Shown in pieces: positions 1,971 to 8,671 of a DNA stretch of 64,000 nucleotides. The translations under genes and the position numbers were made by a program. The notes beneath the pieces were generated by a model that did no database searches, was not told the origin of the DNA, and saw only the letters and a list, made by a program, of their open reading frames with translations. Source of the stretch: Chloroflexota bacterium. Lineage in GTDB: Bacteria > Chloroflexota > UBA11872. Location: contig JAJDUU010000007.1 in assembly GCA_022826485.1 (NCBI GenBank), positions 1 to 64,000 of the forward strand, read 5' to 3'. How positions within the stretch are numbered: position 1 is the first letter of the stretch; every line of letters begins with the position of its first letter.

Positions 1971-2015
1971 GTGCGCGAGTGAGATGGTGGCTCTATGCCC
2001 TCGATGACCGGGTCC
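1971..2015 (+). repeat. Copy B of the 45-bp repeat, containing the ThDP enzyme start
   Basis: Partner of the copy at 1123-1167, about 89 percent identical by eye. It contains the gene start at 1995. A weaker, shortened echo of its beginning (GCGCGCGAGTG followed by TGGTTCCATA) is present just upstream at about 1933-1954, which suggests repeated local duplication. The brnTA module lies exactly between copies A and B. Confidence 0.65.
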
Positions 2016-3677
2016 CGCTTCATTGCCGAGACGTTGCACGGCTACGGCGTGACGGCCGTGTACTTCGTCCCCGGCATCTTGCAGCAGACCCTGGTGGACA
2101 TGGAGCCGCTCGGTATCAAGCGGGTCATGTGCCACACGGAAAAGGCCGCCGCCTACATGGCCGACGGTTACGCCCGCGCCGCGCGGCGCCCCGGCGTGGC
2201 CTTCGCCCAGTCGGTGGGCGCCGCCAATCTGGCGGCGGGGCTGCAGGACGCATATCTGGCCCGCTCGCCCGTGATCGCGCTCACCGGACGCTGGATGCCG
2301 GAATACCGCTATCGGCATGCCTACCAGGAGATCGATCACGGGCCACTCTTCCAGCCCGTCACCAAGTTCAGCGCGCTGGTTGACGGCGCCGAGCAGCTTC
2401 CGCTGCTGCTGCGCCAGGCATTTCGCGAGGCGGTGTCCGGTTCGACCGCGCCGGTCCACCTTGACCTTCTCGGCATCGCCGCCGAGCTGGTGGAGGAAGA
2501 CCAGCTCGACGCCGAGGTGATCGTGGACTCCTCGTTCACGGACTATCCCGCCTTCCGTCCCGCGCCCGACGACGGCCGGATTCAGGCCGCGGCAGACCTG
2601 CTCAAGCAAGCCCAGCGCCCGGTCCTGATGGCCGGAGGCGGCGTCACCGCCTCGCAGGCCGGGCCTCAGATCACCACGCTGGCCGAGAGGCTCGCGATGC
2701 CGGTCGTCACCTCGCTCAACGGCAAGGGCTCGATCCCCGAGGACCATCCTCTGGCCGTTGGCGTGCTCGGCACCTACTCCCGCTCGTGCGCCAACCAGGT
2801 GGCCTACGAGGCCGACCTAGTGCTGATCGTGGGCAGCCAGACCGGCGGGCAGGCCACGCACTTCTGGCGCGTGCCCAGGCCGGGCGTCCCCACCATCCAG
2901 ATCAACGTGGATCCCGCCGAGCTTGGTCGTAACTACCCCAGCCAGGTCGACGTGCTGGCCGACGCCAGGCTGGCGGTGCAGCGACTCATCGACGTCATCG
3001 AGCCCGGCGCGGCGGAAACCGAGTGGTCCCGGCGCGCCCGGCGGCTTGTGGCCGAGTGGCGCGCCGAGTTTAAGCCGCACCGAGACTCCGACGCCTCGCC
3101 GATCCGACCCGAGCGACTCTGTCGCGAGGTCCAGGACTTTCTTCCCGATGACGCGGTGCTGGTCTCCGACACGGGGCACGCGGGCATCTGGACCGGCACC
3201 ATGATCGATCTCACCCATCGCACCCAGAGCTACCTGCGCTGCGCCGGATCGCTCGGCTGGGGACTGCCCGCGGCCATGGGCACCAAGTGCGCCGTGCCCG
3301 ATCGGCCCGTGATCTGCTTCACCGGAGACGGCGGCGTCTGGTACCACCTGGCCGAGCTGGAAACCGCCGCCCGCTGCAAGATCAACACCGTCACCGTCAT
3401 CAACAACAACCGCTCCCTCAATCAGGGCAAGGCCGCGATCGAAGACCTCTACGCCGGACGCGACGGCAACCCGGATGAGCTCTGGGTGTTCCAGGACGTT
3501 GACTTCACCAAGATCGCAGAATCAATGGGCTGCTTCGCGATCCGCGTCACTGATCCCGGAGACCTGCCGGGCGCCCTGGCCGCCGCACTAGACGCCGACC
3601 GCCCCGCCGTGGTGGACGTGGTGACCGACATCAACGTCGCCGCGCCGTTGCCCTACGTTCCGGACCAGCAAGGCTAA
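1995..3677 (+). CDS. Thiamine diphosphate-dependent enzyme, acetolactate synthase-like
   Basis: A 560-residue protein with the three-domain layout of the acetolactate synthase/benzoylformate decarboxylase superfamily. The N-terminal pyrimidine-binding domain holds the cofactor-activating glutamate E49 in HTEKAAAYMADGYAR. A central domain follows, then a C-terminal diphosphate-binding domain with GDGG-VWYHLAEL and, about 28 residues after GDGG, NNN. It should cleave or join a 2-oxoacid, but the substrate is not evident. There is no regulatory subunit nearby, so biosynthetic acetolactate synthase is unlikely. A relative of similar size lies at 20501. Downstream genes are unrelated nucleases, so it is probably monocistronic. 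Confidence 0.85.
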   Translation: MPSMTGSRFIAETLHGYGVTAVYFVPGILQQTLVDMEPLGIKRVMCHTEKAAAYMADGYARAARRPGVAFAQSVGAANLAAGLQDAYLARSPVIALTGRWMPEYRYRHAYQEIDHGPLFQPVTKFSALVDGAEQLPLLLRQAFREAVSGSTAPVHLDLLGIAAELVEEDQLDAEVIVDSSFTDYPAFRPAPDDGRIQAAADLLKQAQRPVLMAGGGVTASQAGPQITTLAERLAMPVVTSLNGKGSIPEDHPLAVGVLGTYSRSCANQVAYEADLVLIVGSQTGGQATHFWRVPRPGVPTIQINVDPAELGRNYPSQVDVLADARLAVQRLIDVIEPGAAETEWSRRARRLVAEWRAEFKPHRDSDASPIRPERLCREVQDFLPDDAVLVSDTGHAGIWTGTMIDLTHRTQSYLRCAGSLGWGLPAAMGTKCAVPDRPVICFTGDGGVWYHLAELETAARCKINTVTVINNNRSLNQGKAAIEDLYAGRDGNPDELWVFQDVDFTKIAESMGCFAIRVTDPGDLPGALAAALDADRPAVVDVVTDINVAAPLPYVPDQQG

Positions 3678-3852
3678 TGGCCTGCATCAGGAAAGGTGCT
3701 CGTGGTTGCGAAGACCCGGGTCAGTTGTTTGCTTTGGCCTGTCTACACCTAGGGCTGCGGACAGCGGCTTCATACTTGACGTCGGTCATAATGTGTCCGT
3801 CTAGGACTTCTGGACAGCAGTGGGCATGTGTGACGAATGAAAGCACCTAACG

Positions 3853-4917
3853 ATGGCCAATAGCCGGAGTCTGCTCAGTTTGATTGCGCAATGGCATTCA
3901 AGAGGCTCCGAAGACGCGGCCACGGACGCGCTCTGTTTCATTTTGACTCGTTCGAGCTCCGCTAGACGAGCATTGTCTGAATTCCTGGCGGATGATTGCG
4001 GCCCACTGCCGATCACGAAGGCGCTGTCTCAACAAGGAATTTCACATGGGGCCTTTCCGGATTTGGTCTTACATGACTATGATGACAAAGTCATAGCGTT
4101 TGTCGAGTCCAAGTTCTGGGCGGATTTAACCGGCCACCAACCCGTCACTTACTGGCAGGAACTTCCGAGTGATCGGCCGACTCTGCTTCTGTTCTTGGCG
4201 CCGGCCTATCGTTTCGAGGCCGGCTGGCTGTGGAATGAACTGGTGAAGCGATTGCAGGATGCAGGCCACGAATTGGGTCCTGCCAGTACCGAGGCGGGGC
4301 TGACGTCAGCGCAATCCAAGTCTGGCCAGCGTCGTCTGATGCTCACGAGCTGGGAGTCTCTACTCGATGCAATGGCAAAGAGATCGAAACAAGACGGTGA
4401 TGACCAAACCTACTTCGAAATCGCCCAGCTACAGGGTCTTGCCATTGACGCTATCGAGCGCGACAATCCACAACGCGATGAACACCTGAAGCTGTTGATC
4501 GCGGACGCCGTGAAACGCCTAGAGCAGTCCGGTTGGGCCAACACAGATGGTTTATCCGTGGCATCGGGATTCAATTATTTCGGAGTAGACAAGTGTGATT
4601 ACCATGGAAGAAATCTTCGCCTGGCAGGTGCATTCGCTTGGTTCGGAATCGACTATACCGCCGCAAAGCTTGAGGACAATCCACTATGGGTGTCCTTCCA
4701 GCACGACGACTCCGCCAGTGTAGATTCAGAAGCGGTGCGCAGCAGTTTGGGCAAATTGGCCGAACCAGGACTGAAATGGCGAAGCAAAGAAGTCTGCGTA
4801 CCGATTGTCTTGCCTGTTGCAGCCGACCGAGAGTCAACTCTCGACGCCATGATTTCCGAATTGGAACGAATCGCGAAGCTCATTGACCCCGATGGACCGA
4901 CTTATCGACAAGCGTGA
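3853..4917 (+). CDS. PD-(D/E)XK-type nuclease-like protein
   Basis: A 354-residue protein. Near the N-terminus it carries the pattern PDLVL (D70), a hydrophobic strand ending VESK (E85, K87), then HQPVTYW (Q96, Y100). Together these match D-ExK-QxxxY of RecB/Cas4-like PD-(D/E)XK nucleases. The remaining 250 residues have no motif I recognise and may bind a partner or target. No signal peptide or membrane segment is seen. Codon use is visibly richer in A and T than in surrounding genes, which suggests recent transfer. It is followed 76 bases later on the same strand by an EEP-fold nuclease, then by a HEPN/MNT pair, so a defence role is a reasonable inference. I know no named family. Confidence 0.6.
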   Translation: MANSRSLLSLIAQWHSRGSEDAATDALCFILTRSSSARRALSEFLADDCGPLPITKALSQQGISHGAFPDLVLHDYDDKVIAFVESKFWADLTGHQPVTYWQELPSDRPTLLLFLAPAYRFEAGWLWNELVKRLQDAGHELGPASTEAGLTSAQSKSGQRRLMLTSWESLLDAMAKRSKQDGDDQTYFEIAQLQGLAIDAIERDNPQRDEHLKLLIADAVKRLEQSGWANTDGLSVASGFNYFGVDKCDYHGRNLRLAGAFAWFGIDYTAAKLEDNPLWVSFQHDDSASVDSEAVRSSLGKLAEPGLKWRSKEVCVPIVLPVAADRESTLDAMISELERIAKLIDPDGPTYRQA

Positions 4918-4993
4918 TGATCGAGGCAATGGCCGACCGATCGCTTGAACTAGATCGCAGCAAAGGCTCTGGAGTCGGTGACAGGGACGCGCC

Positions 4994-5842
4994 ATGATTC
5001 GAGTTGTGAGTTGGAACATCGAAACCTTGCACGAGCCGTGGCGGGAGCTCATTGCGATGGACGCGGATGTGGCCCTGTTGCAGGAAGTAGGCAGCGTGCC
5101 AGACGACATTCGTGACAGGGTGGAAGTAAGCCCCCACATGTCATGGCTGAGCTATGACCCAGCATCTGGCTATCCCCACTACGACCGGTGGCCCATGGTC
5201 GTGAAGCTGTCTGATCGAGTGAAAGTCGAGTGGTTTCGGCAAATCGGTCCAACTTGGATTGCTGAGGAACGCCCCGACGATATGGCCGTGAGCGGCATCG
5301 GCACCATAGAAGTCGCCCGGGTGATCCCAGCGACCGACCAAGAACCATTCCTTGCGGCTTCGATGTACGCCCGCTGGTTCAAACCCCATCCCAGCACGGA
5401 TGCGGACTGGATTCATTCCGATGCCTCGGCTCATCGCATCATCTCCGACCTTTCCGCATTCATCGGAGATTACGAATGCCCAGGTGAACATCGAATTCTG
5501 GCAGCCGGGGACTTGAACGTGACTTTTGAAAGCTCTGACGGATTTCGCCATCGCGCACAGACAATTCTGGATCGATTTCGAGCCCTGGGATTGGACTATC
5601 TGGGACCCCGATACCCCGCGGGTCGTCGTGCGGACCCCACTCCCGAGTTCTTGATTGAAGATTCGCTGGATGTGCCTACCTACTACCATAAGCCGTCAAA
5701 CAGCCCTGCCGAAGCCTCCGTTCAGCTCGACCACGTATTCGCCTCTCGCGGATTTCACGAGGATATTCGGGTGAAGGCGCTGAATGAGGTTGCGGAATGG
5801 GGCTCCAGCGACCACTGCCGGATCGCCATTGACATTGGGTAG
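4994..5842 (+). CDS. Endonuclease/exonuclease/phosphatase (EEP) family protein
   Basis: A 282-residue single-domain protein with a full set of EEP (DNase I-like, exonuclease III-like) active-site motifs: SWNIE (N8), LLQEV (E31), SMYARW (Y125), GDLN (D173, N175), LDHV (D246, H247) and SSDH (D273, H274). EEP proteins are Mg-dependent phosphodiesterases acting on DNA, RNA or small phosphoesters. The substrate cannot be told here. The size fits exonuclease III-like enzymes, but the sequence between motifs is unlike XthA and there is no secretion signal. It follows the PD-(D/E)XK gene on the same strand and shares its lower GC. The two could form a nuclease pair. Confidence 0.78.
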   Translation: MIRVVSWNIETLHEPWRELIAMDADVALLQEVGSVPDDIRDRVEVSPHMSWLSYDPASGYPHYDRWPMVVKLSDRVKVEWFRQIGPTWIAEERPDDMAVSGIGTIEVARVIPATDQEPFLAASMYARWFKPHPSTDADWIHSDASAHRIISDLSAFIGDYECPGEHRILAAGDLNVTFESSDGFRHRAQTILDRFRALGLDYLGPRYPAGRRADPTPEFLIEDSLDVPTYYHKPSNSPAEASVQLDHVFASRGFHEDIRVKALNEVAEWGSSDHCRIAIDIG

Positions 5843-6010
5843 CATCGCAGGAACTACCGTTAGTCGGGTCGAGGCGCAACAAAGGCCGTTGGTCCCGTCG
5901 CATCCTTGACGACTGGTGGTCATTGCGTCACCACCGTTCACCGGCGGCGGTGCGGGTCCCCGGGCCGCTAAACTCAAGGTAGACGGCGTGACCGCGAGAG
6001 ATTCGGCCGG

Positions 6011-6388
6011 ATGCAGCAATCTGCGGAGGACTCACTCCGCCTCGCTCTGGCTCACCTTGATCGGGTGCAGTCGGCGTGGTGGGATCCGACTGACTGGGCG
6101 GACCTCTCGTCGTACGGCCTCTATTGCTTGGAAGCCTGCATCGTCGCGGCGGCGCTGCATCTCAAACGGTCCCGTCCCAGAAGTCACGTCGCGAAGGCCG
6201 AGACGGCCCGTTTCCTGAGTGAGGAGCACGGCCTGCCCGAAATCGACGACCTGCTCGCGGACCTGAACGCGATGCGCAAACACCAGGCATATGGGGACAC
6301 GCAGGCCCCTGACGAGCTGGACCCGGAGGACACCGCTAGCATGATCGGGGCGTATGTCGAAGTCGTGCAGGCGATGCTCGCGCAATGA
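6011..6388 (+). CDS. HEPN-like protein of a HEPN/MNT pair
   Basis: A 125-residue, mostly helical protein whose 4-base overlap (ATGA) with a nucleotidyltransferase gene is the classical layout of HEPN/MNT toxin-antitoxin modules. The putative catalytic segment is MRKHQAYGD (R89, H91, Y94). Canonical HepT toxins have R-x4-6-H with the tyrosine two residues after the histidine. Here arginine and histidine are separated by one residue, so RNase activity is uncertain. The first helices (SLRLALAHLDRVQSA, SSYGLYCLEACIVAAAL) resemble HEPN bundles. Upstream are 168 bases without a gene. The family call rests mainly on context and the helical pattern. Confidence 0.6.
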   Translation: MQQSAEDSLRLALAHLDRVQSAWWDPTDWADLSSYGLYCLEACIVAAALHLKRSRPRSHVAKAETARFLSEEHGLPEIDDLLADLNAMRKHQAYGDTQAPDELDPEDTASMIGAYVEVVQAMLAQ

Positions 6389-7053
6389 CGCAGAGGCTCA
6401 CGACAGAGCGATCAGCAGGCCGACAGGGCGAGCTCAGCGCAACCCTGGACGCCGTTCGAGCGTGGCCAAGCAGCAGGGCGCGCCAATGGACGATCGAAGC
6501 AGTGACTTTCGCCAGGCAGAATGCGTCCATTCAGGCGATCGTCGCCTCTGGTTCAGCCGTGCGTGATGTTTCGAAAACCGACGATCTCGATCTTGTGCTG
6601 GTGTACCGCGAGCGCCGACCCAGACTTCCCCGGCCACCGATCGGCGTGGACCTTCAGCAACACGAGGAAACCGAGGTGCCACGGAAGCTGCAAGACGGCC
6701 ACGACTTCCTCTCGTGGGCCGTGCGCTTCGGCCGACCGATATTTGAGCGCGATCAGTGGTGGACACGCCTGCGAGCCGACTGGAACGACCGGCTATCGTT
6801 GCCGTCGGCCGCCGAAGCTCGCAAGCGCGCGCGCCGTGCGCGGCAACTCCACCAAGAGATGCAGTCGCTCGGCGACTACGACGCCGCTACGGAGAACTAC
6901 ATCGCTATGCTGACCCACCTCGCCAGAGCAGCATTGAGCGACGCCGGCGTCCTGCCGCGGTCGCGCCCGGAGCTCGCCGGCCAACTGCGGAGCATCGGTG
7001 ACCAGCAGCAGGCTGACCGCCTCGACGACGCGTTGGCGCACAGATTCGGATAA
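6385..7053 (+). CDS. MNT-like nucleotidyltransferase domain protein
   Basis: A 222-residue protein containing the nucleotidyltransferase signature ASGSAVRDVSKTDDLDL (G56, S57, then D67-L-D69). This is the GS-x9-DxD core of minimal nucleotidyltransferases. In HepT/MntA systems the MNT partner AMPylates and silences the HEPN RNase. After the catalytic domain the last 80 residues are helical (AATENYIAMLTHLARAALS and following) and may themselves be HEPN-like, making this longer than typical MntA proteins. It overlaps the HEPN gene by four bases and ends just before a hairpin and the tRNA-Arg gene. Confidence 0.68.
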   Translation: MTQRLTTERSAGRQGELSATLDAVRAWPSSRARQWTIEAVTFARQNASIQAIVASGSAVRDVSKTDDLDLVLVYRERRPRLPRPPIGVDLQQHEETEVPRKLQDGHDFLSWAVRFGRPIFERDQWWTRLRADWNDRLSLPSAAEARKRARRARQLHQEMQSLGDYDAATENYIAMLTHLARAALSDAGVLPRSRPELAGQLRSIGDQQQADRLDDALAHRFG

Positions 7054-7065
7054 CACGCACCAAAA

Positions 7066-7110
7066 TCGGCGCTGAGTCATCGGTAACTGTGATTTCAGTG
7101 TCAGCGCCGA
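7066..7110 (+). terminator. Hairpin with a perfect 10-bp stem after the HEPN/MNT pair
   Basis: TCGGCGCTGA (7066-7075) and TCAGCGCCGA (7101-7110) are exact reverse complements around a 25-base loop. Located 13 bases after the MNT stop codon and 60 bases from the 3' end of the opposing tRNA gene, it could end transcription from both sides. The left arm follows an A run, but there is no clear T tract on the right. Confidence 0.45.
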
Positions 7111-7170
7111 AAGCAGTCATCGCCCGAGAGCCACTCCACCGACACTCCAATGGTCTGAGATGGTCGGCGG

Positions 7171-7243
7171 CACCCCCGGCGGGATTCGAACCCACGACCG
7201 TCGGCTTAGAAGGCCGCTGCTCTGTCCACTGAGCTACGGGGGC
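7171..7243 (-). tRNA. tRNA-Arg (anticodon TCT)
   Basis: The minus strand folds as a 73-base tRNA. The acceptor stem is GCCCCCG paired with CGGGGGT, with one G-U at the end. The D-arm is GCTC/GAGC. The anticodon loop CTTCTAA has TCT at positions 34-36 and reads AGA. The T-arm is GTGGG/CCCGC with loop TTCGAAT. The outermost anticodon-stem pair is a G-A mismatch. The 3' CCA is not encoded. The accessory genes lie on its 3' side, as expected for a tRNA used as an integration site, but no second copy of its 3' end was found nearby. Confidence 0.93.
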
Positions 7244-7504
7244 GTGTGGTGGTGCCTTCAGCGTGCTGCGAGTTTCCCATAGCTCCGCGCGGCGGCGGCC
7301 AGCGTGGGCGGCCTGGGCTGCGTTGTCGCCCGGACGGCTCGCCGGGCGGCCGCCCGTCAGTCGTGTCTCAACCCTCCGGGGTGCGTACGGCTAGACTGCG
7401 GGCGATGCTCCCAACCGTTGACCGGCCGAGCGCCGTCCAATCGTGACGGCACCGCCGCTCCGGGCGCAGCGACTGGCACCCGTGCTTGCCCGAGACCGAG
7501 TAGC

Positions 7505-8671
7505 GTGAGCGCACGCGCCGCGCCCGACGAGACTCTCAACGCGACTGAGGCGTGGTTTCGCAGGCAGGGGATTCCGCATCTCATCGAGGACTACAGCACT
7601 CGGCGCGACATTCTGACCCGCACCCTGCCGTTCCTCATGGCCGTGCTGATGCTGGAATTGCTGTTCACCTTCAGCCCGGACTGGCCGTGGTGGACGAGCG
7701 TGCTCTCGGTGGTGGGGGCGATGCTCGCGGTGACGGCGGTTTGGGTGGGGATCAACGCCGTGCGCCGTCGAAAGCTGCTGTCGCTGCCGGAGCAGGTGGG
7801 GGCAGTCGAGGTGCTCGTGTTTCTGCTTACGGCGCCGGCGCTCACCGCCATCATCGTCGGCGATTGGACGTATGCGGTTCTCGAACTGGCGATCAACGCC
7901 CTGCTGCTGCTGGGGGCCTATCTCACCGTTGGCTTCGCGCTGGTGCCCATCCTGCGCTGGGGTGCGCGGCGGCTCATCCGCGATATGCTCGATGTCCTGG
8001 GGCTCTTTGCGCGGGCTCTTCCGCTGCTGCTCATGTTCCTGACCTTCCTGTTCATCAACGCCGAGGTATGGCAAATGGCGGGAACGATCGACTATGGGAT
8101 CCTCGGCGCCCTGATTGGTCTCTTCGCGCTGGTGACGGTGGCGTTTCTGGTATTCCGGCTGCCGCTCGAACTCAGCAACCTGGCGATCTTCGAACGCCCC
8201 GAACGGGTGCTGGAGCTTGTGCAGGGGACTCCCGCCGCCAGCCTGGTCGACTCGTCCGGGTCGCTGAAGCTGGACGCACCGCTCAGACGCGGGCAATGGG
8301 CGAATGTCGGACTCGTCGTGCTCGCCGCGCTGGCGCTGCGCGTCGTGTTTGTCAGCGCCCTTGTGGGAGCGTTCTTCTTTGTCTTCGGGGCAATTGCCAT
8401 GGACTCGATCACCATCTCGTCATGGACGAAGAGCGATCCACGAGTCCTGCTGGACCTTGAGTGGCTGGGAAGGGCGGTGACCGTGGAGCTGCTGCAGGTA
8501 GCCGCCTTCCTCGCCTCGTTTTCGGGCTTTTACTTCACGATCAGCATCCTCACGAACCGCGAGTACCGCGATGAATTCTTCGAGGAAGTCGTGGGCGACG
8601 CGCGGCGAGCCCTGGCCGTGCGTTCGGTCTATCTGGGCGCGCTCGCGCAGCGTGAGGAAGACCCGAGCTAA
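7505..8671 (+). CDS. Polytopic membrane protein of unknown function
   Basis: A protein of about 388 residues from a GTG start at 7505. An open frame continues upstream but is Arg/Pro-rich and lacks coding character. After a soluble N-terminus (WFRRQGIPHLIEDYSTRRD) there are about eight or nine hydrophobic segments, for example LPFLMAVLMLELLFTF, VGAMLAVTAVWVGI, AINALLLLGAYLTVGFALV and LPLLLMFLTFLFI. There is a cytoplasmic or external loop around FERPERVLELVQGTP, and the protein ends in a charged tail. I do not recognise the family. The LIEDYSTRRDILTR opening resembles conserved hypothetical membrane proteins seen in other high-GC bacteria. It stands alone between tRNA-Arg and the convergent korB. 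The role is unknown. Confidence 0.7.
   Translation: MSARAAPDETLNATEAWFRRQGIPHLIEDYSTRRDILTRTLPFLMAVLMLELLFTFSPDWPWWTSVLSVVGAMLAVTAVWVGINAVRRRKLLSLPEQVGAVEVLVFLLTAPALTAIIVGDWTYAVLELAINALLLLGAYLTVGFALVPILRWGARRLIRDMLDVLGLFARALPLLLMFLTFLFINAEVWQMAGTIDYGILGALIGLFALVTVAFLVFRLPLELSNLAIFERPERVLELVQGTPAASLVDSSGSLKLDAPLRRGQWANVGLVVLAALALRVVFVSALVGAFFFVFGAIAMDSITISSWTKSDPRVLLDLEWLGRAVTVELLQVAAFLASFSGFYFTISILTNREYRDEFFEEVVGDARRALAVRSVYLGALAQREEDPS

Follow-up and report, generated by a model that had tools for sequence, protein, structure and literature searches.

Several described systems bear on the locus reported here. Proteins of the PD-(D/E)XK superfamily, such as those of families PDDEXK_4 (PF14281) and VRR_NUC (PF08774), carry the motif E...PD...ExK...Q. 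The endonuclease/exonuclease/phosphatase (EEP) superfamily (PF03372) includes DNase I as well as the exonuclease III and APE repair enzymes. PDC-S11, a DUF4268-containing candidate, is a single restriction-nuclease-like gene found in defense contexts. In Hachiman (HamAB) and other nuclease-effector systems, as described in PMC12278908, a nuclease effector is accompanied by a second protein. Class II HEPN/MNT modules consist of a PF05168 HEPN protein that lacks RX4HXY and has a conserved tyrosine, encoded beside a PF01909 MNT protein with the motif GSX10DXD (PMC7641770). Restriction-modification, CRISPR, and toxin-antitoxin genes are reportedly overrepresented in the genomes of sponge symbionts (PMC5649159, PMC8163846). 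No system combining a PD-(D/E)XK protein with an EEP protein was found in the literature searched; the "EEP" of PMC8092258 is the name of a phage and not a nuclease system.

We analyzed a stretch of 64,000 nucleotides, hereafter the window, from an uncultured Chloroflexota bacterium whose closest relatives are inhabitants of marine sponges (contig JAJDUU010000007.1). It contains adjacent genes for a PD-(D/E)XK-like protein, DExK, and an EEP-fold protein, EEP1. DExK has the motif of the PD-(D/E)XK superfamily and its core fold as predicted, whereas it passes no Pfam model and has an extra C-terminal domain. EEP1 shares the fold profile and catalytic residues of the EEP superfamily but forms a subfamily of its own, fused to or beside a PD-(D/E)XK protein. 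Like PDC-S11, DExK is a single restriction-nuclease-like gene in defense contexts, yet the protein families differ and the DExK profile does not detect PDC-S11. In contrast to Hachiman, both partners of the DExK-EEP pair are nuclease-like, and the pair includes no helicase or ATPase. Finally, unlike in type II restriction-modification, no DNA methyltransferase gene is linked to the pair between the conserved edges of the locus in either the window or the same-genus genome G005.

Gene content of the locus and its hotspot

The first-pass annotation had described a four-gene nuclease and HEPN/MNT cassette. Indeed, four ORFs lie on the plus strand: DExK (3853-4917; 354 amino acids), EEP1 (4994-5842; 282 amino acids) after a spacer of 76 bp (4918-4993), a HEPN gene (6011-6388), and an MNT-type nucleotidyltransferase gene (6385-7053; 222 amino acids), the last two sharing 4 bp. 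The two nuclease genes are AT-rich, as had been noted, with GC contents of 54.3% for DExK, the minimum of the window, and 57.1% for EEP1, compared to 67.6% for the window as a whole. At 64.9%, HEPN-MNT is much less AT-rich than the nuclease genes.

Across the genus, the genes are found in a hotspot that is bounded on the left by a gene for a ThDP-dependent (acetolactate-synthase-like) enzyme (1995-3677, plus strand; 560 amino acids) and on the right by tRNA-Arg/kor genes. The tRNA gene at which the cassette was said to end is tRNA-Arg(TCT) at 7169-7243; it is encoded on the minus strand and thus faces the four genes. It is followed by a conserved gene (7304-8671, plus strand) whose homologues begin near 7505. 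The BrnTA genes placed just upstream are likewise real, with BrnT at 1450-1740 (toxin, PF04365) and BrnA at 1179-1520 (antitoxin, PF14384), but both are on the minus strand and beyond the ThDP-enzyme gene, in a conserved flank outside the module. In G002, G003, and G005, this flank likewise contains homologues of BrnA, BrnT, or both. Integration of a mobile element at the tRNA gene was considered and rejected, since a search of 3600-7300 for direct repeats of at least 14 bp, such as a copy of the end of the tRNA gene at the opposite edge, found none.

The content of the hotspot varies. It holds DExK-EEP1 and HEPN-MNT in the window, DExK-EEP1 in G005, EEP1 and HEPN-MNT in G003, and HEPN-MNT in G001. 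In the sister species G004 (L095), where the left edge is not reached, it holds Avs2 and a type ISP restriction enzyme as well as HEPN-MNT; in G002, it is split by contig ends. HEPN-MNT is therefore present without DExK in three genomes of the genus (G001, G003, G004), and the pair is present without HEPN-MNT in G005. Because the two come apart within the genus, they are separate modules. The close spacing of the four genes on one strand of the window had favored a single cassette; given the clean separation in G005, G001, G003, and G004 and the difference in GC content, this reading is very improbable. The earlier proposal that the genes act together held up against its own refuting conditions for the nuclease pair, as described below, and is unsupported for the set of four.

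Judged from its sequence features, HEPN-MNT is an independent module and probably an ordinary one of class II, although both proteins score below the Pfam cut-offs (HEPN, 19.9 bits for PF05168 with a cut-off of 22; MNT, 13.8 bits for PF01909 with a cut-off of 21). RX4HXY is missing from HEPN, which excludes class I, and is replaced by MRKHQAYGD in four of four relatives. The HEPN tyrosine (Y94) is conserved and, as in class II, the adjoining MNT has a GS...DXD motif, but its spacing is GSX9DXD; the length of the MNT, 222 amino acids, is a further difference. Relatives of MNT were found in G001, G003, G004, G007, and G035.

Features of DExK and EEP1

DExK was characterized using its ORF, an alignment of 23 relatives (A1), an AlphaFold model, and Foldseek. 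In the alignment, E20 and Q96 were invariant and P69, D70, E85, and K87 were conserved in at least 90% of sequences. These residues make up the motif E20, PD(69-70), ExK(85-87), Q96 in the N-terminal, nuclease-like core. The model had a mean pLDDT of 86.6, and DSSP yielded a core order of alpha-beta-beta-beta-alpha-beta: helix 19-33, strands 56-59, 71-74, and 80-86, helix 98-103, and strand 110-116. The C-terminal domain, approximately residues 205-350, is predicted to be alpha/beta and has no recognized family. Foldseek returned weak matches, the best being YaeQ (E = 0.014), followed by DrdV and the C-domain of TnsE. No Pfam profile exceeded its cut-off for the window DExK. For PDDEXK_4, one relative came close to the cut-off of 22.3 with 22.0 bits, and VRR_NUC matched other relatives below threshold. 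Against PHROGs, the window DExK had a single weak match (E = 4.5e-4), and the matched family has no assigned function. The motif and the predicted core fold argue that DExK is a PD-(D/E)XK-like protein, in line with the identity first assigned to 3853-4917.

The EEP fold proposed for the second gene was borne out, EEP1 scoring 29.3 bits for PF03372 against a gathering score of 24.5. Its catalytic set, taken from the columns of an alignment of 23 sequences (A2), comprises N8, E31, D173, N175, D246, D273, and H274. Asn175 was absent solely from solo EEP1 copies of the C26/C10 type. Searches with the DExK profile and the EEP1 profile (A2, E ≤ 0.01) found no sequence relatives in the PDB. Both genes are under purifying selection: between the window and G005, dN/dS was about 0.25 for DExK and about 0.14 for EEP1.

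Further copies of these genes occur elsewhere. The genome of the window contains one distant DExK paralogue and two further EEP1 copies, which are not adjacent to each other, and G005 has six EEP1 copies. In L003, L111, L112, and L215, an EEP1 subfamily without the catalytic Asn (GDW/GDLS) is found beside large genes.

Pairing and fusion of DExK with EEP proteins

In other genomes, the two nuclease genes co-occur far above chance and are in several cases fused. Among 350 sampled Chloroflexota, there were 20 carriers of DExK and 22 of EEP1, with an overlap of 14 and an odds ratio of 94, a value that is not corrected for phylogeny and that kinship inflates. DExK and EEP1 were at most 3 kb apart in 10 of the 14 genomes having both, compared to 0.08 expected by chance.

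DExK and EEP1 are separate neighbors in the window and in G005 and constitute one ORF in G023, G008, G018, and G013; in G020, the fusion is interrupted by stops. The 76-bp spacer of the window can be aligned to the linker that joins the two parts in frame in the G023 and G020 genes, differing from the fused form by a stop and small differences in length. According to the dN/dS analysis, the linkers of fused genes are under weaker constraint. In G008 and G018, the stretch from the end of DExK to the catalytic Asn of the EEP protein contains no ATG, GTG, or TTG, so the EEP half is most simply made only within the fusion. In the G013 fusion (L041:2014-3054), the DExK half is without its motif (AEM, ESI) and EEP1 is intact; some copies may thus have a single working nuclease. 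At L213 and L215, EEP1 is surrounded by a longer open frame; these two were also considered and are not DExK fusions.

DExK genes of the same clade are also paired with a second EEP subfamily, EEP2 (49.8 bits for PF03372). The gene orders observed were DExK-EEP2, DExK-EEP2-EEP1, and EEP2-EEP1-DExK, and in G009, G012, and G014 the EEP2 gene is between the DExK and EEP1 families. Based on these data, 3853-4917 and 4994-5842 are a real two-gene module, the unit being two genes and not four.

Phylogeny and distribution

Because relatedness inflates counts of co-occurrence, trees were built for DExK (91 rows) and for EEP1. On the DExK tree, the EEP label required 6 changes, 5 of them forced by well-supported branches, as compared to a mean of 16.7 for shuffled labels. 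Most EEP-linked rows were within one 20-row clade. EEP linkage was also found on three other DExK branches: L144 (Vicinamibacteria), L154 (an unclassified bacterium), and the divergent L176 (Gemmatimonadota). On the EEP1 tree, 14 of the 15 DExK-linked genes were in one 20-row clade, which included those of L144 and L154 even though the DExK genes of these loci are distant. These trees suggest that one and the same EEP lineage was combined with more than one DExK lineage.

Neither EEP nor WPHEY, a small protein described below, was encoded within 1.2 kb of 58 of the 91 DExK homologues, and 16 of the 31 EEP1 genes had no DExK nearby. The partnership is accordingly optional. That each family also occurs alone fits two independent nucleases collected by the hotspot without a joint mechanism, as does the fact that the variable islands also gather restriction-modification genes, Avs2, PDC-S11, and HEPN-MNT. 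Nevertheless, we consider this explanation unlikely, as it does not account for the tight spacing, the fusions whose second half has no start codon of its own, the pairing of one DExK clade with two EEP subfamilies, or the repeated EEP linkage on other branches.

In a search of the contigs of the GTDB set, a single-protein query returned 0 relatives and an alignment query returned 156. DExK occurs in Chloroflexota, Pseudomonadota, Acidobacteriota, Actinomycetota, Rhodothermota, and other phyla. For 30 of 79 loci, the names of the metagenome-assembled genomes (MAGs) pointed to two published sponge sets: we read the prefixes APA, CAR, COS, IRC, and RHO as host genera of PMC8163846 and the MP* accessions as those of PMC5649159. 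The best reading is that the nuclease pair is common in sponge symbionts. The gammaproteobacterial locus L115, whose contig is 3.1 kb long and may be misbinned, was not used as key evidence.

Defense context and proposed function

Copies of the pair adjoin restriction-modification genes or are in the hotspot that holds Avs2, in keeping with the phage-defense setting suggested for the individual genes at the outset. Restriction-modification genes adjoin the copies in G020, G019, and G006. Specifically, the G020 pair is next to an AspBHI-type restriction endonuclease, a C5-methyltransferase, and a HATPase-type restriction endonuclease; a methyltransferase gene is also beside the G019 copy. A gene of the PADLOC candidate PDC-S11 is inside the G008 cluster, and another is beside the copy in G007. 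At E ≤ 1e-20, the neighbors of 12 loci (93 proteins) had matches to 86 PADLOC families, and control stretches with a comparable number of genes (90 proteins) had matches to 18. This is an indication only, as the numbers count families and not proteins, one protein can match many families, and a few loci contribute part of the difference. PADLOC profiles did not match DExK, EEP1, EEP2, HEPN, or MNT. Similarly, no match was found in the plasmid and phage collections, the query for the latter being a single protein, the distant DExK homologue encoded at L192.

The recurrent adjacency and the fusions, found beside anti-phage genes, suggest that the pair is probably an undescribed two-nuclease defense module. 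On balance, we favor DExK-EEP1 being a two-component nuclease module, most likely directed against phages or other mobile DNA. The defense role is suggested by context; DNA as the substrate and the division of labor are likewise proposals. DExK would recognize DNA, probably through its C-terminal domain, and cut or nick it, and EEP1 would probably process the cut ends or cut the same DNA once more. Since the window module has no methyltransferase, self DNA would have to escape in another way, for instance if cutting depended on modification or if the proteins became active only upon infection.

A housekeeping role in DNA repair or recombination, in which an end-processing nuclease serves alongside a PD-(D/E)XK nuclease, would be in line with the repair enzymes of the EEP family and with some paralogues found among metabolic genes in the same genus (the C41 copies). 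It is difficult to reconcile with the pair's patchy occurrence within the genus, its low GC content, its variable hotspot, its restriction-modification neighbors, and its scattered phyletic distribution, and we regard it as quite improbable. If the favored reading, a nuclease module against mobile DNA, is correct, the combination is one that is absent from the defense-system profiles and papers searched, and the natural fusions indicate that the two activities belong together. The pair would then also be a testable candidate from sponge symbionts, and the conserved chromosomal hotspot is a place in which further defense genes can be sought.

Other partners and neighbors of DExK

In several phyla, distant DExK genes often follow, at a distance of a few tens of bp, a conserved gene for a protein of approximately 120 amino acids, WPHEY (named after its motif; alignment A4; L190:7621-7989 and at least 13 other loci). 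It is fused to DExK in L183 and is also present on the viral contig L192. No match to WPHEY was found in Pfam or PADLOC, none that was significant in PHROGs, and none that was structurally meaningful in a fold search.

The position of WPHEY upstream of DExK, its fusion in L183, and its occurrence on a viral contig speak for a toxin-antitoxin-like or abortive-infection pair in which DExK is the effector and its neighbor, EEP or WPHEY, exerts control; partner exchange is also typical of such modules. However, the EEP proteins have a full set of catalytic residues, which is not typical of a plain antitoxin, fusions to neutralizers are uncommon, and many DExK genes are solo. Control of this type is thus somewhat unlikely. 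A broader form of the favored two-nuclease module is possible, and we put it forward tentatively: a new anti-mobile-element system that would spread horizontally among sponge symbionts, in which a PD-(D/E)XK protein has an interchangeable partner (EEP1, EEP2, or WPHEY) and the two nucleases, assembled in a complex or fused into a single enzyme, would share one DNA substrate.

Other arrangements of DExK genes were also observed. In the Caldilineaceae loci L134, L137, L141, L147, L152, L153, L158, and L159, DExK genes are mostly in tandem and encode truncated forms, full forms, and forms with a duplicated C-terminal domain. Other nuclease-like genes directly adjoin DExK genes at L142:6988-7980 and L168:8983-10176; judged by inspection, one is DUF4268-like and lies at -1 bp, and the other is NucS-like.
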